Shown here: positions 1 to 7,125 of the stretch, in pieces
How the letters are laid out: the number at the start of each line of letters is the position of its first letter
Numbering within the stretch: the first letter of the stretch is position 1
Assembly (NCBI GenBank): GCA_021789565.1
Contig: JAJYJL010000410.1
Coordinates: 1-7,125 of the forward strand
Source of the DNA: Acidobacteriota bacterium
GTDB lineage: Bacteria; Acidobacteriota; Terriglobia; UBA7540
DNA: 7,125 nucleotides
Direction of reading: 5' to 3'
Notes under the pieces: model-generated
Databases searched by the model: none
What the model was told of the DNA's origin: nothing
The model's input: the letters and a program-made list of their open reading frames with translations, nothing else
Made by a program: the position numbers and the translations under genes

Positions 1-202
1 GACGCTCCAAACTCTCGAGTCCCTTTGCATGAGCTTGCCTTGATCGTACGCAACCACAGCCTCGGCTCGTTGCGTCCCCTCGACATGACCAGGACTCCCT
101 GATTGGCAGGTGCCGGCAGAATGGGGGAGGGAGGTCATGGTTGCTTTCGTTGGCGGCTGGTGGCACCATGATCTTGAGCCTTTAGTGCACGGAGGTCAGA
201 GT

Positions 203-208
203 AAGGAG
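203..208 (+). promoter_or_regulatory. Ribosome binding site that fixes the GTG start of the sigma-54 activator
   Basis: AAGGAG lies 8 bases before the GTG at 217. An in-frame TAA stop at 202-204 closes the frame immediately upstream, so no longer form of the protein is possible, and GTG 217 is the only start with a good Shine-Dalgarno sequence. Confidence 0.8.
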
Positions 209-216
209 TTTGTTCC

Positions 217-1656
217 GTGCGGTCCATTCCAGATTCACTCCCACCGCTTGCTTCTGAGCTCGGCATGCACCCGTTAACTGAGGCCGCGCTCCACGGGATT
301 ACGCGAGCTCTCGCATCAGTCGGACGTGCTTTCATCTGTCTCGACTCCTCTTTCCACATCGTGCATTTCTCGGATGTGCTCGAACGTGTCGTGGGGCGCA
401 ACGCCTCCATGACGCTCCGGGGAAAGCCGGTTGAAGAAATTCTTGGTAACGATCTCTTTGGAGCTCGCGGTCCTCTGCGTACGGCGATGCTCGAAGGGCA
501 GATGCGCGAAGGCTGGCGAGCGACTCTCCAATTTCATGACGCCGAGCCTCGCCTGGTCTCGATCACCGTTGCGCCGATGATCAGTGACTATTCAGAGATC
601 TGCGACCCAATGGTTCGATACCTCATCCTTTTGCGGCCGGCGGATGAGGAGGAGACTTGCCCGGATGCGCCCGTCTACTATGCCGGCGCCGTCGCCTGTT
701 CCCCCGCGATGCAGCGAATCTTCCGGCTTGTCGAGACTTTGCAGCACAGCGAAGCAACAGTCCTGGTTACTGGCGAAAGCGGTGTCGGCAAGGAAGTCGT
801 CGCCCGCGCTGTTCACCAGAGCTCCCCGCGCAGCAGTGGACCATTTGTTGCCGTGAACTGCGGCGCGTTGCCGGCGGACCTGCTGGAGTCCGAGCTCTTC
901 GGGCATGTCCGCGGCGCCTTCACGGGCGCCGTGCGTGATCGCGTCGGCCGTTTTGAACTTGCTTCGCAGGGCACGCTCTTTCTGGATGAGATTGGAGACC
1001 TGCCCCCCCAGTTGCAGGTGAAACTACTGCGCGTTCTTCAGGAGCGCCAGTTTGAGCGCGTTGGCGAAAGCACGTCACGAACCACAAATGCCCGGATTAT
1101 CGCGGCCACCAACGTCGACCTTCGCCTTGCCATGCGCCAGGGACGGCTGCGCGACGACCTCTACTATCGCCTGTGTGTGGTTCCGATTGAAGTCCCTCCT
1201 TTGCGCGAGCGGCGTGAGGATATTCCTCCTTTGGCAGGAAATCTCCTGAACCGTATCACCGCCCAGCACGGGCTTGTACGCCGCATCTCACCCCAGGCGA
1301 TGCGGCTGTTGCTGGACTACGCCTGGCCCGGCAATGTCCGCGAACTGACAAACGTGATGGAGTACGCAGTGGCCGTTGCGCGGATGGAGACGATTCTGCC
1401 GGAGGATCTGCCTGAGGAAATTCGGCACACACTCCCGGAGGCGACCTCTGCTGCTGCGGCGACCCCAGGTGCAGACTCTCGCGCAGTCCCTGCTGCCCCT
1501 CAATCGGTCACGATCTCTGAACCGGATGCGATCGACCGCGGCCGCATGGTGGCCGCGCTGGAAGCGCATCACTGGAAGCGCTCTGAGGCAGCCCACGCCC
1601 TGGGCATCAGCCGTTCCACGCTGTGGAGGCGGATGCGAGAGCTTCAGATCGGCTAA
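217..1656 (+). CDS. Sigma-54-dependent transcriptional activator (PAS-like sensor, AAA+, Fis-type HTH)
   Basis: This is a bacterial enhancer-binding protein of 479 residues that would use ATP hydrolysis to open sigma-54 RNA polymerase promoters. Residues about 25-125 look like a PAS-type sensory domain, and there is no receiver domain, so it is probably a one-component sensor. The AAA+ domain (about 158-400) is intact: Walker A GESGVGKE (186-193), the sigma-54 contact loop GAFTGA (233-238), Walker B LFLDEIGD (254-261), an AATN sensor I element (296-299), arginine finger region [10 protein letters not shown] (310-319), and sensor [10 protein letters not shown] (370-377). An Ala/Pro-rich linker (about 405-435) leads to a Fis-type helix-turn-helix (about 441-477, [11 protein letters not shown]). 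It starts at GTG with AAGGAG 8 bases upstream. A consensus sigma-54 promoter begins 108 bases after its stop, so the downstream FadL-like gene is the obvious target. The signal sensed is not visible; Cys41 sits in the PAS-like domain. Confidence 0.95.
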
Positions 1657-1700
1657 GGCTCGTTCCTGAAACATTTTGATTCAACTTGCAACGGATTGAT

Positions 1701-1715
1701 GCGACGTCCTGTCGC
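1701..1715. promoter_or_regulatory. Candidate enhancer (upstream activator) site: GCGAC-N5-GTCGC palindrome
   Basis: Perfect 5-base inverted arms (1701-1705 and 1711-1715) are separated by 5 bases. The centre at 1708 lies about 84 bases before the transcription start predicted from the -24/-12 promoter, within the usual -80 to -150 range for enhancer-binding-protein sites. It lies between the activator gene and its likely target. A single short palindrome can arise by chance, so the assignment is tentative. Confidence 0.35.
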
Positions 1716-1764
1716 GTTCTGTCTCTGGATATTTCACTAAGTCCATTCATTTCAGCGCCCTCGC

Positions 1765-1782
1765 TTGGCACGCTGGTTGCAT
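1765..1782 (+). promoter_or_regulatory. Sigma-54 (RpoN) -24/-12 promoter of the FadL-like gene
   Basis: TTGGCACGCTGGTTGCAT matches the sigma-54 consensus (TTGGCAC, 5 bases, TTGCW) at every conserved base. The GG is at 1767-1768 and the GC at 1779-1780, the required 12-base spacing. Transcription should start near 1792. Because the site lies inside a reading frame that could be read from TTG 1765, it shows that the upstream part of that frame is not coding. The gene just upstream encodes a sigma-54 activator. Confidence 0.92.
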
Positions 1783-1854
1783 CATGTCGGGTCAAGGCCC
1801 GCGTCGCAATCTGTTCCAAAATTGCGGGTCAAGAAGGGTCCTGAAAGAACGATC

Positions 1855-3195
1855 ATGGCTTCCTGGAATTTCTCCCGATTGCAAGCAGGAATTTTCCTTT
1901 TATTCTTCGCTCTTGTTGTGGCACTACCGGGCAACCTCCGCGCGACCGACGGACATTTTCTGCATGGTGCCGGTCCGGTCAATGAAGCCATGGGCGGAGC
2001 CGATACGGGTCTTTGTCTTGATGCCACGGGTTCGCTCGCATGGAATCCGGCATGCTCATTTCACTTTTCCGGCAAGCGCCTGGAGTTTCACGGCACGATC
2101 TTTGTTCCATGGCGATCGCTGGGCAGCACTGTGGACGCGAATGCCTTTGGTCCCGGGATGCCCGGTGCAACCCTCAGTGGAACCACCGTCAGCCATACGG
2201 ATACCTCATTCATGCCAGGCATGGCTTTTGTCTACCATCCGCAGAGCAGCCGCAATGCTTACCACTTTGCCATGCTCGCCGTCAGCGGATTTGGTGTGGA
2301 CTACGATCAAAGCAACAACTTCAGCAATCCCATTCTCACTCCGCAAGCACCGAATGGATTTGGCTTTGGGAAACTCCGTTCCAATTACGCCTTGCTGACC
2401 ATGCCGGTTGGCTTCTCGCGTCAAGTCACAGACCAGCTTTCCGTGGGCATCTCAATTGTTCCTGCATTCTCCATGCTGAAGGTGATTCCCGCTCCATTCT
2501 CCGCTCCAGTGAGTGCGGGTAGTACGATGCCGTACTATCTGTCCGCATCAACCAACGCAAAGGCCCTCGGGATTGGTGCGCAGATTGGCGTGCACTACGC
2601 CATGAACGACAAAGTGAGCCTGGGTGTTGCCTACCATTCAAACGTGTGGTTTCAGGACTTCAAGTGGACCAGCGCCGATCTGACAGGCGCCAGGCACAAC
2701 CTCAACTTCAATATGGATCTGCCAAGCCTGGTCACCGTTGGGATCGGAGTGACACCGACCCAGTCCACTCATATTGGTGTGGATGCGCGCTGGATCGATT
2801 ACCAGAACACCTCAGGCTTCGACGAGGTTGGCTATGACCCAGATGATGCCATTTCCGGTTTCGGCTGGAAAAACATCTGGACGGTCGGCGGTGGGATTCA
2901 GCAGCGCATCACTTCCTCGACAAAGCTGATGGGCGGCTACAACTTCTCGCAGAATCCTGTGCCAGCTGCCTATACATTTTTCAACACGCCCGCGCCGGCG
3001 ATCGTGCAGCATCACCTGTCTGGTGGAATCGTTCAATCCGTGCACGGATGGGATTTGAATGCTGCCTACTATCACGCATTTAAGAATTCGATCACCGGGC
3101 CATGGATCTCTGGGCAAGGAAATATCCCGGGAACGTCCGTGACGAGCAAGATGTCAGAAAACTCCATTTCCATTGGACTCGCCAGAAGTTTTTAG
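1855..3195 (+). CDS. FadL/TodX/OmpP1-type outer-membrane channel for hydrophobic compounds
   Basis: This 446-residue protein, close to the usual FadL-family length, should be a 14-strand outer-membrane beta-barrel that passes hydrophobic molecules by lateral diffusion. It begins with a signal peptide: Arg8, hydrophobic core about 11-24, and probable cleavage after LRA (28-30). The N-terminal hatch follows with the family's G-x-G...MGGA pattern (38-49) and a WNPA segment (63-66). Alternating amphipathic strands continue to a C-terminal Phe, the usual signal for barrel insertion. ATG 1855 is chosen because the frame's earlier TTG start (1765) lies in the sigma-54 promoter. TTG 1822 is possible but has no Shine-Dalgarno, and the one for 1855 is itself weak. 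The only two cysteines, Cys54 and Cys67, are both in the hatch, the second replacing the glycine of the common NPAG motif. The substrate is unknown: fatty acids, hydrocarbons, or by context possibly elemental sulfur. Confidence 0.88.
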   Translation: MASWNFSRLQAGIFLLFFALVVALPGNLRATDGHFLHGAGPVNEAMGGADTGLCLDATGSLAWNPACSFHFSGKRLEFHGTIFVPWRSLGSTVDANAFGPGMPGATLSGTTVSHTDTSFMPGMAFVYHPQSSRNAYHFAMLAVSGFGVDYDQSNNFSNPILTPQAPNGFGFGKLRSNYALLTMPVGFSRQVTDQLSVGISIVPAFSMLKVIPAPFSAPVSAGSTMPYYLSASTNAKALGIGAQIGVHYAMNDKVSLGVAYHSNVWFQDFKWTSADLTGARHNLNFNMDLPSLVTVGIGVTPTQSTHIGVDARWIDYQNTSGFDEVGYDPDDAISGFGWKNIWTVGGGIQQRITSSTKLMGGYNFSQNPVPAAYTFFNTPAPAIVQHHLSGGIVQSVHGWDLNAAYYHAFKNSITGPWISGQGNIPGTSVTSKMSENSISIGLARSF

Positions 3196-3196
3196 C

Positions 3197-3252
3197 GTCA
3201 TCCTCCAGCCGGATTGTGCATATCTTCCGTGCGTTCCGCGCCGGAGGACGAC
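3197..3252 (+). repeat. Inverted repeat after the FadL-like gene (long-loop stem)
   Basis: GTCATCCTCC (3197-3206) pairs with GGAGGACGAC (3243-3252), 9 of 10 positions matching, around a 36-base loop. It begins two bases after the stop codon of the FadL-like gene. There is no run of T after it, so it is not a classic intrinsic terminator. It could be an RNA end structure, or chance. Confidence 0.3.
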
Positions 3253-3255
3253 TTA

Positions 3256-3280
3256 TGTGGTTTGTACGAAGCTGACCACA
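3256..3280. repeat. Inverted repeat TGTGGT-N13-ACCACA
   Basis: A 6-base perfect inverted repeat (3256-3261 with 3275-3280) with a 13-base spacer lies in the intergenic region ahead of the ArsR-type gene. It could be an operator or a small hairpin. No poly-T follows, so a terminator role is unlikely. Confidence 0.25.
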
Positions 3281-3285
3281 AAGAG

Positions 3286-3301
3286 CGTGATATCGGTCAC
3301 T
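3286..3301. promoter_or_regulatory. Candidate CRP/FNR-family box (GTGA-N6-TCAC)
   Basis: GTGA (3287-3290), six bases, then TCAC (3297-3300) reproduces the core of CRP-type sites. It lies 36 bases before the palindrome at 3337 and about 85 bases before the ArsR-type start codon, a sensible place for an activator acting on the sulfur-gene operon. No CRP/FNR-type regulator is encoded in this window. The match covers only eight bases. Confidence 0.35.
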
Positions 3302-3336
3302 GCGCATGGAAAAGGAAGGCCATACAGTTTTCTTAG

Positions 3337-3352
3337 TTGCACAATTGCGCAA
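3337..3352. promoter_or_regulatory. Candidate ArsR-type operator (TTGCACAATTGCGCAA)
   Basis: This 16-base palindrome is symmetric at 7 of 8 base pairs and ends 32 bases before the ArsR-type gene's ATG. ArsR-family repressors generally bind short palindromes overlapping their own promoters, so autoregulation of the downstream operon is the natural reading. A further partial half-site, TGCAA, follows at 3356-3360. I could not identify convincing -35/-10 elements around it. Confidence 0.45.
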
Positions 3353-3371
3353 GTATGCAACAAGCGGAATC

Positions 3372-3377
3372 GGAGGA
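3372..3377 (+). promoter_or_regulatory. Ribosome binding site that decides the ArsR-type start
   Basis: GGAGGA ends 7 bases before ATG 3385. The alternative in-frame starts TTG 3337 and ATG 3355 have no Shine-Dalgarno, and TTG 3337 lies in the palindromic operator candidate. Confidence 0.75.
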
Positions 3378-3384
3378 ATCCCGA

Positions 3385-3753
3385 ATGAAGCGCCTCATGA
3401 ACGAAGCATCGTGCGAGCTGCTGGGCGACTTTTTTGAGACGTTTGCCCACGGCACGAGAATGCGAATCTTCTGCGCATTGCAGCGGGAGCCCAAGACCGT
3501 GACCGAGATTGCCAACGAGGCAGCCGTGTCCATTCCGAATGCCTCCCAGCATCTGCGCTTGATGCGAGACAGGGGCGCTGTCATCGCGGAGAAGAAGGCG
3601 CAGAGTGTCTACTACCGGATTGCCGATCAACGCTTTATCGAAGCTGCGATTCTGATTCGCAGTGCACTCTCCGAAAGATTTCTACACACTGCGGTTCGAA
3701 CTTCCATTCACCCAACCGCAAAACAACCTTCAAAGCAACTTCAACCCGCGTGA
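3385..3753 (+). CDS. ArsR-family winged-helix repressor, probably thiol/sulfur-responsive
   Basis: This is a 122-residue DNA-binding repressor of the ArsR/SmtB family. Helices at about 11-45 lead into the helix-turn-helix, with the recognition helix near 50-64 (NASQHLRLMRDRG), and a beta-hairpin wing at 66-81 (KKAQSVYYRI). A long C-terminal helix (about 83-102) should form the dimer interface. The metal-binding ELCVCDL motif of classical ArsR is absent. The only cysteines are Cys10 and Cys30. Cys30, in RIFCAL, appears to align with the first reactive cysteine of the persulfide sensors BigR/SqrR, whereas their second, C-terminal cysteine is missing and Cys10 could take its place. The chosen ATG has GGAGGA 7 bases upstream. 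The gene heads a row of sulfur-transfer and Hdr-like genes and lies just after a palindrome, which suggests self-repression released by reactive sulfur species. Family assignment is firm; the signal is inferred. Confidence 0.88.
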   Translation: MKRLMNEASCELLGDFFETFAHGTRMRIFCALQREPKTVTEIANEAAVSIPNASQHLRLMRDRGAVIAEKKAQSVYYRIADQRFIEAAILIRSALSERFLHTAVRTSIHPTAKQPSKQLQPA

Positions 3754-3791
3754 CTGCTGCGGCAGGCACGCATGAAAGATGGAGTCATTTT

Positions 3792-4043
3792 ATGAGTGAA
3801 GCAGTTGCAATCCTCACCGCCGATAAGGTCATTGATGCCCGTGGAACAGCATGTCCAGGGCCGCTTCTTGAAGCCAAAAAGGGCATTGGCGCTGTCAAGG
3901 TCGGGCAGATCATTGAGATCAAGTCGAACGACAAGGGATCACGCAAGGATATCTCCGCGTGGGCCGGCAAAGTGGGTCATGAGTTTCTGGGGATCGTCGA
4001 GGCTGAAGGGCACGATCGCCTGTTCGTCCGTCGCAAGAAGTAG
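3792..4043 (+). CDS. tusA: TusA-family sulfur carrier protein
   Basis: This small cytoplasmic protein of 83 residues, the usual TusA length, should carry sulfur as a persulfide on a conserved cysteine. The family signature DARGTACPGPLLEAKK spans residues 15-30, with the acceptor Cys21 in the CPGP motif. The second half has the typical TusA pattern of a polar loop (SNDKGSRKDI) and an aromatic helix (WAGKVGHEFL). ATG 3792 is chosen over GTG 3750 because GGAG lies 7 bases before it and the homologous part begins there. It starts 38 bases after the ArsR-type stop and precedes the MvhD- and HdrA-like genes. TusA proteins also accompany sHdr and Dsr sulfur-oxidation clusters, so here it may deliver or accept sulfur for the complex encoded downstream rather than serve tRNA thiolation. 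Confidence 0.9.
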   Translation: MSEAVAILTADKVIDARGTACPGPLLEAKKGIGAVKVGQIIEIKSNDKGSRKDISAWAGKVGHEFLGIVEAEGHDRLFVRRKK

Positions 4044-4137
4044 CCCCTTCAAACAGAGTGACGCGGACTGCTGGGTGCTGAATAGATGGACGACGCATGT
4101 CTGAGTCGCAAACGGCAGCCGCAGGAGGAGGCTCAAG

Positions 4138-4638
4138 ATGAGCGTTCCATTCATCCCGAAAATTCTGGTTCTGGCAACCGAAAAATGCGCCTATCCAGGC
4201 GCTGATGCCGTGGGCAAGGCGCACCAGGAATATCCATCTCACGTGTATATTCTTCGCGTCCTTTCACCTGTTGTGTTTCCTGAAGACTTCTATCTTCGTA
4301 CGTACAGTCAGGGCATCGACGGCATTCTGATTGCCGCTTGCGGCTCCGACTGTCCTTATCACGGTGCTTACGACCGTCTTGCTGCGCGCATTGATCGGCT
4401 TACTACCCGCATGAATGCGGGTGGGCTTGGCATTGAACGCATTCGACTGACCGCCATTTGCACCGTGTGCATCAAGGCGTTTCTGAAAGAGATTGCCATG
4501 ATGACCGACAACCTGCAGCGGCTGGGGCCTGTCGATCGAAAGATTGCAGAGCGACTGCATCTGGAATCTCTCGAACGTCTTCAGGAGTCAGTGCGATCTG
4601 AAGAGCCGGTCGAAGTCATGCAAGGGGGTCTTTTGTGA
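4138..4638 (+). CDS. MvhD-like (hydrogenase delta/HdrA-partner) iron-sulfur protein, divergent
   Basis: This 166-residue protein resembles MvhD, the small [2Fe-2S] protein that passes electrons to HdrA. The family landmarks are recognisable: CAYPGAD (17-23), a YPSHVYILRV strand (32-41), GIDGILIAACGSDCPYH (59-75), and the GIERIRL segment (98-104). As I recall the family, the first ligand region is C-x2-C and a further cysteine follows the RV strand; here those positions are Thr14 and Ser43. The retained cysteines are Cys17, Cys68 and Cys72, and an extra CTVC pair (108/111) is present, so the cluster may be bound differently. Residues after about 130 form a charged helical tail. The start has AGGAGGAG 7 bases upstream. 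The stop overlaps the next gene's start (GTGA), which points to translational coupling with the HdrA-like protein. The 94 bases before it hold nothing clear beyond the ribosome site. Confidence 0.8.
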   Translation: MSVPFIPKILVLATEKCAYPGADAVGKAHQEYPSHVYILRVLSPVVFPEDFYLRTYSQGIDGILIAACGSDCPYHGAYDRLAARIDRLTTRMNAGGLGIERIRLTAICTVCIKAFLKEIAMMTDNLQRLGPVDRKIAERLHLESLERLQESVRSEEPVEVMQGGLL

Positions 4639-5948
4639 ACACCGCGATTGATTCCAGCTACTCTCCCGACGTCGTCGTCATTGGCGCAGGGATCGCCGGG
4701 TTACAGTCTGCACTCGATCTGGCCGATCAAGGGATGAGCGTCCTGGTCGTTGAGCGCAATGCGAGCATCGGCGGGCACATGATCGAACTTAGCAAAGTCT
4801 TTCCCACGCTGGATTGCGCCAGTTGTATTACGACGCCAAAGATGTCTGCAGCGGCGCACCATCCGAATATTCAGATCCTGACCTATACGGAGGTGGAGTC
4901 GATCGAATCCATCGAAGCACATCATGTGGTGCGGCTCCTCCAGAAGCCAACCTATGTGAACTTCGACAAATGCATCGGTTGCCGGCTTTGCGAATATGCA
5001 TGCGACACAGAGTACCCGGATCCCTTTGAGCAGGGTCTTGGTTCGGTTCGCGCCATCGCGGTCCCGTTTACCAACGCCATTCCGCAAAAGGCGGTGCTCG
5101 ATGCGGAGCATTGCGGCACTTGCGGCACCTGCGCGCGCGTGTGCCCGACCGGAGCGATTGAGTTCGATCAGCAGCCACGGCGGCTAAACATTCACACGGA
5201 TGCGGTCATCCTTGCGACTGGATTTCAGCTGAATGCAGTCACGATCAAGCCGCAGTATCACGCCAGCCTCAGCCGCGACATCATTTCACCGCTCACGCTG
5301 GAGCGCCTTCTGGCGCCCCACGGACCTTATGGGCGAGTGCTTCGGCCCTCCGACGGAAAAATCCCTTCTTCAATTGCATTTGTGCAATGCGCTGGCTCGC
5401 GCGACGAGTCGATCGGCGTCCCCTACTGTTCACGGGTGTGCTGCATGTACGCCATCAAGCAGGCCATGCTGTTGTCCGGAGCTCTTCCGCTGGCAGACAT
5501 CACCATCTACTACATGGACATTCGGGCCTTTGGTAAAGGGTATGAGCAGTTCTATCAGACTGCCAAAGCAATGGGCATCAACTTTGTCCGGGGCAAGGTT
5601 GCTCGGATTCAGCCCGTCGGTGGAGGCGATCTGTCGGTGCTGGTGGAGACCACAGAAGATGCCGAGAACCCCATGCAGGAACATCGTCACGACTTGGTTG
5701 TACTTGCACAGGGGATGGTTCCCGGCTGGAATCCGAAGGGGATTGTCAACACAGCCTGCGCGGGAGACGGCTTTGTGGCAACGCCGCAGTTGACGGCGCC
5801 AACCGCTACCACGGTCCCCGGCATATTCACTGCCGGCGCAGCGGCGGGACCCAAGGATATTGTCGACAGCATTGCAGAGGCTGGAGCCGCAGCCATGCAG
5901 GCCAGCGAGTATTTGTATCAGAAGCGATCCTTAACCTGCGTTGGGTGA
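4635..5948 (+). CDS. HdrA-like FAD and 2x[4Fe-4S] oxidoreductase (QmoA/HdrA core)
   Basis: This 437-residue cytoplasmic flavoprotein is related to the core of heterodisulfide reductase subunit A and to QmoA. A Rossmann FAD site comes first (GAGIAG 17-22, Glu40), followed by the HdrA signature FPTLDCASC (56-64). An inserted ferredoxin module carries two [4Fe-4S] motifs: Cys113/116/119/123 and Cys160/163/166/170, the latter with the classic CP ending. The second flavin half contains QCAGSR (251-256), YCSRVCCMYAIKQA (264-277) and a closing TAGAAAGPKDI segment (399-409). The N-terminal HdrA domain and the C-terminal ferredoxin of methanogen HdrA are missing. GTG 4635 is chosen because AAGGGGG lies 6 bases upstream and it overlaps the MvhD-like stop. 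The protein probably receives or splits electron pairs through FAD with the MvhD-like partner. The family is clear; whether it bifurcates electrons or oxidises a sulfur carrier is not. Confidence 0.9.
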   Translation: MNTAIDSSYSPDVVVIGAGIAGLQSALDLADQGMSVLVVERNASIGGHMIELSKVFPTLDCASCITTPKMSAAAHHPNIQILTYTEVESIESIEAHHVVRLLQKPTYVNFDKCIGCRLCEYACDTEYPDPFEQGLGSVRAIAVPFTNAIPQKAVLDAEHCGTCGTCARVCPTGAIEFDQQPRRLNIHTDAVILATGFQLNAVTIKPQYHASLSRDIISPLTLERLLAPHGPYGRVLRPSDGKIPSSIAFVQCAGSRDESIGVPYCSRVCCMYAIKQAMLLSGALPLADITIYYMDIRAFGKGYEQFYQTAKAMGINFVRGKVARIQPVGGGDLSVLVETTEDAENPMQEHRHDLVVLAQGMVPGWNPKGIVNTACAGDGFVATPQLTAPTATTVPGIFTAGAAAGPKDIVDSIAEAGAAAMQASEYLYQKRSLTCVG

Positions 5949-5983
5949 TTGTTACGAATGTGAGCCAGCGTGAGAGGAAGACG

Positions 5984-7125
5984 ATGAACCATCCGGATCC
6001 GAAAGACCAGGCACTGGAACTTACGAACGGCGGCGCGGAATGCTGGGAGCCCGGGCAGGTCGACGAGCATGCTGTCCAGCAGGAAATTGACTCTGCCTGG
6101 CGCCGCGAAGAGGCTCTTTACTCTGCTGCAAAGGAGCAGCAAGAGCCGCGCATCGGCGTCTATATCTGCCGGTGTGGCGGAAACATCTCGGATGTTGTCG
6201 ATGTCGAGCGCGTCGCCCGGACGGTGCGCCTGATTCCAGGAGTGACAACGGCCAAGGTACATACATTTGTCTGCTCCGATCCTGGGCAACACACCATCAG
6301 CGATGACATTCTCAAGGAGAACCTGGATCGCGTCGTGGTCGCATCCTGCTCACCGTTTCTGCATGAGCAGACATTTCGCGGCGCTGTTTCACGCGGCGGG
6401 CTCAACCCCTATCTCTACGAGCACGTCAATATCCGGGAGCAAGCGTCGTGGGCGCATAAGCACGATCCGGAGGGCGCGACTCAGAAGGCGATCCGGATGA
6501 TCGCTGCTGCCGTCGGAAAGCTGCACTATGTTCGGCCGCTGGATCAAATCAAACTGCCCAATCATCGTCGCGCCCTCGTGATTGGCGGCGGAGTTGCCGG
6601 CATGAAAGCAGCCTCTGATCTGGCGATGCGTGGCATCAAAGTCCTGCTAGTGGAAGCGTCCGAGCGATTAGGCGGCCAGTTGAACAACCTGAACCGCGTC
6701 TACCCATCGGAGCGTCCGGCCTCAGAGATTGTGAAGGAACTTGAGCAGAAAGTCCTGCACAACGAGAATATCGAGATCTTCCTCGGCGCCAGGGTCAAAT
6801 CAGTAAGTGGATTCATCGGCAATTTCAAAATTGCGCTGCAAGTGGCAAGCACTGCCGGAGATGAATCTCCCCATGTTGCGTTCACTGTAGGAGCAATCGT
6901 CATTGCGACAGGCTTCCGTCCTTATGTCCCGCAAGATGGTGAGTCTCTTTATCGCAGTTCGCCTGCGGTGCTTACCATGCCGGAATTCATCCGATTTCTG
7001 CGCACTGTTGAGCCTGCTGCATCGGAGCTGGTCTTTGGGGATCGCGTCGTCCGCAAGATCGCCTTCCTGCATTGCGTCGGCAGCCGCCAATTGGACGGAG
7101 TCCACCAGCCTTCACCGGAAGGCAA
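5984..7125 (+). CDS. Second HdrA-like flavoprotein (partial, runs off the right edge)
   Basis: The open frame runs from ATG 5984 to the window end, 380 codons with no stop. AGGA lies 5 bases before the ATG, and the gene begins 35 bases after the first HdrA-like gene. Residues 1-55 are a polar, charged extension of unknown role. Residues about 56-190 are the N-terminal HdrA domain: GVYICRCGGNI (58-68), a FVCSDPGQ element (95-102), VVVASCSPFLHEQTF (117-131) and NIREQASWAH (149-158). Candidate cluster ligands are Cys62, Cys64, Cys97 and Cys122. A Rossmann FAD domain follows (GGGVAG 201-206, Glu224) and continues through VIATGF (306-311) and FLHCVGSR (361-368). Between the strand at about 278-286 and VIATGF there are only about 20 residues, so the ferredoxin insert found in the upstream paralog is absent, as is its DCxxC. 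The rest of the protein, and any C-terminal ferredoxin or MvhD-type domain, lies outside the window. Confidence 0.9.
   Translation, partial: MNHPDPKDQALELTNGGAECWEPGQVDEHAVQQEIDSAWRREEALYSAAKEQQEPRIGVYICRCGGNISDVVDVERVARTVRLIPGVTTAKVHTFVCSDPGQHTISDDILKENLDRVVVASCSPFLHEQTFRGAVSRGGLNPYLYEHVNIREQASWAHKHDPEGATQKAIRMIAAAVGKLHYVRPLDQIKLPNHRRALVIGGGVAGMKAASDLAMRGIKVLLVEASERLGGQLNNLNRVYPSERPASEIVKELEQKVLHNENIEIFLGARVKSVSGFIGNFKIALQVASTAGDESPHVAFTVGAIVIATGFRPYVPQDGESLYRSSPAVLTMPEFIRFLRTVEPAASELVFGDRVVRKIAFLHCVGSRQLDGVHQPSPEG

Follow-up and report, generated by a model that had tools for sequence, protein, structure and literature searches.

A TusA-linked operon of Hdr/Qmo-type proteins in Acidobacteriota and other phyla as a candidate route for sulfur-derived electrons into the quinone pool

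TusA is a courier of sulfur whose known respiratory clients are the Dsr and sHdr systems. The sHdr gene order is marked by paired HdrC1B1 and HdrC2B2, and sHdr is not known to include a separate MvhD or a second HdrA gene. Clusters of the sHdr type are described to contain TusA and DsrE proteins (PMC6776052). For type II QmoABC, Neukirchen et al. (2023) describe complexes nearer to HdrA than to bacterial QmoAB, which occur with or without Dsr/Apr and whose function is left open there. Here, a stretch of 7,125 nucleotides (nt) from an Acidobacteriota bacterium was analyzed (assembly GCA_021789565.1, contig JAJYJL010000410.1, positions 1 to 7,125; the window). On its plus strand, genes for a sigma54-type activator, a FadL-type porin, ArsR, TusA, an MvhD/FlpD-type protein, HdrA1 and a partial HdrA2 were identified. 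We see an even chance that the window covers the larger part of an operon whose products form a TusA-linked Hdr/Qmo-type electron-transfer complex, which would pass sulfur-derived electrons into quinone.

The operon starts with arsR (3385..3753), coding for an ArsR/SmtB-family repressor (NCBIfam HTH_metalloreg, 67.5 bits, cut-off 55), followed by tusA (3792..4043) for the sulfur carrier with a CPGP motif (Pfam TusA, E=1.5e-19) and mvhD (4138..4638). The latter encodes an MvhD/FlpD-fold protein of 166 amino acids (aa) with a derived C108-T-V-C111 motif (Pfam FlpD, E=5.6e-19). The next gene, hdrA1 (4635..5948), codes for a small HdrA-type flavin adenine dinucleotide (FAD) protein of 437 aa with an inserted two-cluster ferredoxin domain, and hdrA2 (5984..7125) for a larger HdrA-type FAD protein with an HdrA N-terminal domain, truncated by the window end. 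All five genes lie on the plus strand with intergenic distances of 38, 94, −4 and 35 nt, mvhD and hdrA1 overlapping by 4 nt. This agrees with the first-pass annotation of the window, which had described the same five co-directional genes at about these positions.

The continuation of the operon was read from locus L001 of an Acidobacteria metagenome-assembled genome (MAG; G002), which matches window positions 1–7116 at 88.7% DNA identity; L001 and its genome were used in place of the window's own genome. The gene order there is arsR–tusA–mvhD–hdrA1–hdrA2–x105–qmoC-like–dsrE2. HdrA2 of L001 has 664 aa with a ferredoxin domain at the C-terminus, and the QmoC-like protein of 391 aa combines two [4Fe-4S] motifs with a C-terminal part of the QmoC type. 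The dsrE2-type product matched Pfam DrsE_2 with 151 bits and the DsrE2 equivalog NF047629 with 56.7 bits, below its cut-off of 210. Among the HdrA-type genes of the L001 genome, HdrA1 and HdrA2 scored high and two more matches were weak (E 1e-5 to 7e-5). The operon therefore does not end at the second HdrA, as the first-pass annotation had it, and the cytoplasmic complex proposed there is wrong for the window operon, since a QmoC-like membrane subunit follows downstream in L001. Of the downstream partners it had suggested looking for, a QmoC-like gene and a DsrE2-type gene are present in L001, and the HdrC and HdrB pair was not found there.

For the analysis of conservation, a first set was formed from the window and the best 80 loci of at least 551 HdrA1 relatives found by a scan of genome contigs, chosen by similarity. 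Genes were counted with one set of profile hidden Markov models at fixed score limits in the 75 loci with at least 1.5 kilobases (kb) upstream of hdrA1 and the 67 loci with at least 3.8 kb downstream. In addition, genomes were sampled by phylum for HdrA1 matches at E 1e-120 or 1e-115. Such matches were found in 11 of 396 Acidobacteriota, 23 of 297 Desulfobacterota, 4 of 301 Chloroflexota and 4 of 294 Planctomycetota genomes. Together these gave 32 new loci (8 Acidobacteriota, 21 Desulfobacterota, 3 Chloroflexota); six further matches and two of the four from Planctomycetota were already in the first set, and the other two from Planctomycetota were left out.

The gene tusA precedes hdrA1 in 74 of the 75 first-set loci, the window included, and in 25 of 28 phylum-sample loci. 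An mvhD gene was found in 73 of 75 and hdrA2 in 66 of 67 first-set loci, and x105 was present throughout (67/67 and 26/26). A DsrE- or DsrE2-type gene lies nearby in 64 of 67 first-set and 16 of 26 phylum-sample loci. The operon is rare in each sampled phylum, and its make-up is nearly constant where it is present. It occurs in Acidobacteriota, Planctomycetota, Armatimonadota, Chloroflexota and Desulfobacterota, and is carried by the complete genome record of Desulfosarcina widdelii (L057). The arrangement is thus no product of chance, the tusA–hdrA1 order being conserved across several phyla, and an arrangement found in one genome only, which would have spoken against the first-pass annotation, is refuted.

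The output end of the operon differs between loci. A QmoC-like subunit is encoded in 55 of the 67 first-set loci and a short HdrC in 12, all of the latter together with an HdrB of the protein kind c11, for which a CCG domain was identified by Pfam in L057. The 26 phylum-sample loci comprise 13 with a QmoC-like subunit, 7 with HdrC and HdrB, and 6 with neither. In no locus of the first set or the phylum samples do a QmoC-like subunit and a c11-type HdrB occur together. In place of these subunits, L155 and L157 encode a fused protein of the HdrD type, in which two CCG stretches accompany a 4Fe-4S domain, and L154 and L156 show a weak c11 match resembling that of L155 and L157. No QmoC-like subunit, HdrC with HdrB or c11 match was found near hdrA1 in L158 and L159. 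These sequence comparisons show alternative output modules on a common core. They also bear on a variant of the sHdr system that oxidizes TusA-bound sulfur to sulfite, which we consider improbable: TusA and DsrE are shared with sHdr-type clusters and the Desulfobacterota versions of the operon often have HdrC and HdrB, but the majority type of the first set (55/67) and half of the phylum-sample loci (13/26) have the QmoC-like subunit without a c11-type HdrB, and a separate MvhD together with two HdrA genes is not known from sHdr.

A further locus of the Planctomycetota MAG that carries L022 (DBS1-1.bin91) contains a second hdrA1–x105–qmoC group (L037:2349-5263), near which tusA, mvhD and hdrA2 were not found.

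All 76 TusA relatives aligned have Cys21 of the CPxP motif, and P22 and P24 are conserved at 95% or more. The window MvhD-like protein has the MvhD/FlpD fold and belongs to the corresponding Pfam family. The motif CxVC was found in all 105 TusA-type MvhD proteins (L133–L135, L158 and L159 left out) and at that position in none of 20 ordinary MvhD/QmoB domains, of which 13 were aligned and 7 compared by pattern only. A CxVC pattern match in QmoB of L118 was discarded, as the alignment places this motif elsewhere. In L160 and L162, the two residues of CxVC are the sole core cysteines. In the predicted structure, the motif lies between the strand 102–105 and the helix 112–129. The canonical CxxC and MCSG motifs, whose cysteines we take to be ligands of a [2Fe-2S] cluster, are altered in the 20 TusA-type rows aligned. 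Judged from these sequences, the MvhD-like protein may be a former iron-sulfur subunit repurposed as a thiol relay.

Small proteins of the kinds c20 and c22 are encoded next to tusA in some loci (L042:3873-4157, L057:8948-9253 and similar); by eye they resemble a TusA without the active cysteine, and the L042 protein gave no Pfam match. Weak TusA matches of 27–32 bits were also seen upstream in L066, L080 and L140.

HdrA1 matched the NCBIfam HdrA2 model over the core only, with 453.5 bits and thus below the cut-off of 1100; 14 of its cysteines are invariant in 81 aligned sequences. The aligned QmoC-like subunits all keep eight cluster cysteines and three histidines. All five QmoC-like proteins tested reached 180–200 bits with the QmoC model NF038018 (cut-off 300 bits); of the controls beside aprA, L111 scored 498 and L120 only 259, so that this cut-off also misses some QmoC. 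X105 has 105 aa and, according to the alignment, no conserved cysteine. It was predicted to form a winged helix (predicted local distance difference test score 87.9). Winged-helix regulators and Z-alpha domains make up most of the structural matches listed, with no DsrD chain among them, and a PDB sequence search gave no match. X105 probably serves as an adaptor or as an allosteric subunit; judged from the structural matches it may be a DNA-binding protein, and a DsrD-like function is an idea only.

Three loci of the Acidobacteriota sample (L133, L134 and L135 of genomes G080, G093 and G066) carry hydrogenase genes. In L133 and L134 the order is hdrA2–mvhD–[NiFe] hydrogenase small and large subunit–hdrA1–x105–qmoC, tusA is absent and MvhD is of the ordinary type. 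L135 ends at a contig end, and its visible part consists of the hydrogenase large subunit, hdrA1, x105 and qmoC. Pfam identified Oxidored_q6 and NiFeSe_Hases in L133 and NiFeSe_Hases in L135. In the HdrA1 tree, provided that the root lies on the QmoA/HdrA side, the three sequences are nested in the TusA-type group (starred branches force the nesting; nearest branch 83/81), and a placement as its sister group was rejected for this reason. Because of the nesting, the hydrogenase seems to have taken the place of TusA and the CxVC-type MvhD. Mainly on account of this exchange TusA is placed at the electron-input end, and it looks like a swappable electron-input partner. L133–L135 perhaps encode uptake hydrogenases wired to quinone via a Qmo-like module.

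The relation of the operon to sulfate and sulfite metabolism was examined in 50 operon genomes from the 80 loci; many are incomplete MAGs, which makes absences soft. The gene dsrA was found above the cut-off in 21 of them, with three more dsrA-like matches at 333–343 bits, and aprA in 17; some operon genomes have neither above the cut-offs. The L001 genome has dsrA with a dsrB-like neighbour (L126, G002:C32) and no aprA match, which perhaps indicates sulfite rather than sulfate metabolism. For 14 of the 17 genomes with aprA the surrounding region was analyzed. A complete qmoABC lies beside aprA in 10, two regions are cut by the contig (L117, L119), and L118 and L124 combine QmoAB with HdrBC-like proteins; L129, too, has qmoABC, although its split aprA does not reach the cut-off. 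The uncut QmoB proteins of the apr regions (n = 13) have 748–826 aa. Neither the X105 nor the TusA profile gave a match in the 20 regions L111–L130. In the trees, HdrA1 and the QmoA of the apr regions in operon genomes each form a group of their own with full support (QmoA clade 100/100). In the 17 genomes, the nearest aprA to the operon lies at about 11 kb (D. widdelii); otherwise aprA is on another contig or farther away, as far as the contigs show. The D. widdelii gene (L112, G001:C1:4568337-4570229) is a second aprA above the cut-off, apart from the one on the side of qmoABC.

It is unlikely, at about one chance in ten, that the operon encodes a type II QmoABC as defined by Neukirchen et al. 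(2023) that works for the APS (adenosine 5′-phosphosulfate) reductase, with TusA as an incidental neighbour. The QmoC-like third subunit would be in line with such a role. Against it, aprA exceeds the cut-off in only a third of the genomes tested (17/50), most of the aprA regions have their own complete and separate qmoABC (10/14), and TusA is too constant for an incidental neighbour (74/75 and 25/28 loci).

A TusA-(per)sulfide:quinone (or heterodisulfide) oxidoreductase is the most likely function of the operon products. In such a complex, sulfane sulfur or sulfide would be loaded onto Cys21 of TusA, with DsrE or DsrE2 as the sulfur-transfer partner. Two electrons would then pass via the two CxVC thiols of the MvhD-like protein to the FAD and [4Fe-4S] clusters of HdrA1 and HdrA2, from where the QmoC-like subunit would deliver them to the quinone pool. 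In the variants with HdrC and HdrB or with HdrD, the electrons could instead reach a protein heterodisulfide, perhaps TusA-DsrE. The flow of sulfur-derived electrons into quinone would be reversible in principle; this direction is suggested by redox potentials and by the hydrogenase variant. More tentatively, and clearly short of an even chance, the operon products may be a respiratory complex of a new class. In this TusA-(per)sulfide:quinone oxidoreductase, MvhD, once an iron-sulfur subunit, would have turned into a CxVC thiol/persulfide relay that links a carrier protein to a flavin core of the Hdr type, and the modules would be interchangeable (TusA or hydrogenase for input; QmoC-like, HdrC with HdrB, or HdrD for output).

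The c15 protein of L014 (L014:15751-17586) is a pyridine nucleotide-disulfide reductase with a rhodanese domain, of the coenzyme A (CoA)-disulfide/persulfide reductase kind. It reached 457.9 bits with the CoA-disulfide reductase model (cut-off 578.8), and a relative was also seen in L037. This protein or its relatives are encoded downstream of the operon in seven loci (L014, L011, L013, L016, L017, L019, L020) and upstream in two (L005, L018), which also speaks in favour of the TusA-linked complex proposed above.

The same complex could also work in reverse as a persulfide/polysulfide reductase, with electrons from quinol, ferredoxin or NADH passing via QmoC/HdrA to TusA-SSH and H2S being released, perhaps with electron confurcation; we give this reading roughly one chance in four. 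It is favoured by the c15 relatives beside the operon, by the Desulfobacterota operon genomes, which carry dsrA and mostly aprA, and by the established direction of canonical Qmo in sulfate reducers, from quinol to APS. Persulfide reduction by menaquinol alone, however, would be uphill, and the variant with the hydrogenase better fits an input module that donates electrons.

Several points weigh against the oxidation of TusA-bound sulfur towards quinone. Gene neighbourhood is no proof of a physical complex, and TusA might act as a substrate, as a regulator or as a donor of sulfur for assimilation. The direction relies on textbook redox potentials. Because none of the QmoC-type operons has an HdrB of the c11 kind (0/55 in the first set, 0/13 in the phylum samples), a disulfide-active iron-sulfur site is missing in them and the thiol step would fall to CxVC alone. 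In the tree including the phylum-sample loci, the TusA label requires three changes and does not mark one clade, so that "always with TusA" would be too strong; a single clade of TusA-type HdrA1 was obtained only in the first tree, whose rows were chosen by similarity, and is broken by the phylum-sample loci. Finally, L158 and L159 of the Desulfobacterota sample (G694, G650) keep hdrA1–hdrA2–x105, L158 without a nearby tusA and with a 108-aa piece of an ordinary MvhD, and L159 ending at the contig start. A partner is likely encoded elsewhere in the genome.

Upstream of hdrA1, ArsR genes were found in 40 of 53 QmoC-type loci of the first set and 4 of 10 of the phylum samples, and in none of the HdrC-type loci (0/11 and 0/7). 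The window ArsR passes the generic metalloregulator cut-off alone and reached 37.7 bits with the BigR model (cut-off 155); the thiol-type repressor named in the first-pass annotation is therefore not established. The distribution of ArsR would suit a role in sulfur assimilation or protection, with TusA as a source or sink of persulfide in cofactor synthesis or the control of reactive sulfur and the Hdr module recycling thiols. The quinone-type membrane subunit and the patchy occurrence suggest catabolism instead, and we regard this role as very improbable.

The first gene of the window (217..1656, plus strand) encodes a sigma54-dependent activator with AAA+ and Fis-type helix-turn-helix domains, a probable regulator (Pfam Sigma54_activat, E=2.7e-69; HTH_8). 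It is followed on the same strand by a sigma54 −24/−12 promoter-like site without mismatches, TGGCACGCTGGTTGCA (1766..1781), upstream of the gene for a FadL/TodX-type outer-membrane porin (about 1855..3195, plus strand; Pfam Toluene_X, 36.3 bits, cut-off 29.7). In shuffled sequences, 0.42 matches with at most one mismatch are expected for the window. A sigma54 activator of this broad family precedes hdrA1 in 26 of 75 first-set loci, including the window, and in 13 of 28 phylum-sample loci; in the other 49 and 15, respectively, none above 150 bits was found. The 38 non-window loci with a sigma54 regulator were scanned on one strand, against single-base shuffles. The best site has no more than one mismatch in 29 of them (none in 7), two in 5 and three in 4. 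Of the 80 other loci, 13 have a FadL-type gene no farther than 7.5 kb from hdrA1. The activator and the porin may be part of the TusA-Hdr system, and hydrophobic sulfur uptake by the porin is a guess. Behind dsrE2, a dihydroorotate dehydrogenase-like protein (scanned in L025) or its relatives are encoded in the Planctomycetota loci L025, L026, L027, L028, L029 and L031.

The recurrent operon suggests a possibly undescribed electron route between sulfur and the respiratory chain. If true, this would be a third client of TusA and a sulfur energy pathway missed by current marker genes. It would also be a case of module exchange in Hdr machines, with one core combined either with TusA and CxVC-type MvhD or with a hydrogenase and ordinary MvhD. 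No description of a tusA–mvhD–hdrA–hdrA–qmoC operon was found in the literature searched, within which alone its novelty is claimed; the description of type II Qmo by Neukirchen et al. (2023) comes nearest. The reviews of Appel et al. (2021; HdrA modules) and Tanabe et al. (2019; TusA) and the Vulcanisaeta paper may mention it.

Compared to known systems, the operon shares with the YTD cluster (yedE-tusA-dsrE) a tusA accompanied by a DsrE-type gene, whereas Hdr/Qmo-type genes are not described for YTD in the part of the literature available. With sHdr it has in common Hdr-type proteins together with TusA and DsrE-type sulfurtransferases. It differs in MvhD, two HdrA, X105 and, in the window's type, a QmoC-like output, and an ordinary sHdr operon was rejected due to the lack of paired HdrC1B1/HdrC2B2. 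Like QmoABC, the operon encodes two HdrA-type flavoproteins, an MvhD-type domain and a membrane subunit of the HdrC plus HdrE type. In Qmo, however, MvhD is the C-terminal domain of QmoB, whereas here it is a separate protein with CxVC, and TusA and X105 are added. An ordinary Qmo operon was rejected by the separate MvhD, the position of HdrA1 outside the QmoA clade and the QmoC-like score below the cut-off. The downstream genes thus complete an ordinary Qmo operon as far as the QmoC-like subunit is concerned, but not with regard to the altered separate MvhD, TusA, X105 and the usual DsrE-type gene. The original view of a sulfur-linked Hdr-like operon unlike both sHdr and canonical Qmo is supported. 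Type II QmoABC is similar in being nearer to HdrA and in occurring with or without Dsr/Apr; the comparison is by description only, and the available part of that description makes no mention of an adjoining TusA or a split MvhD. No gene for an MvhAG [NiFe] hydrogenase is among the window genes or the L001 operon genes, such genes being confined to the relatives L133–L135. Compared to MvhAGD-HdrABC of methanogens, the operon therefore has TusA in place of the hydrogenase and a QmoC-like output, its domains are split between two HdrA proteins, and its MvhD has lost some of the canonical cysteines and gained CxVC.

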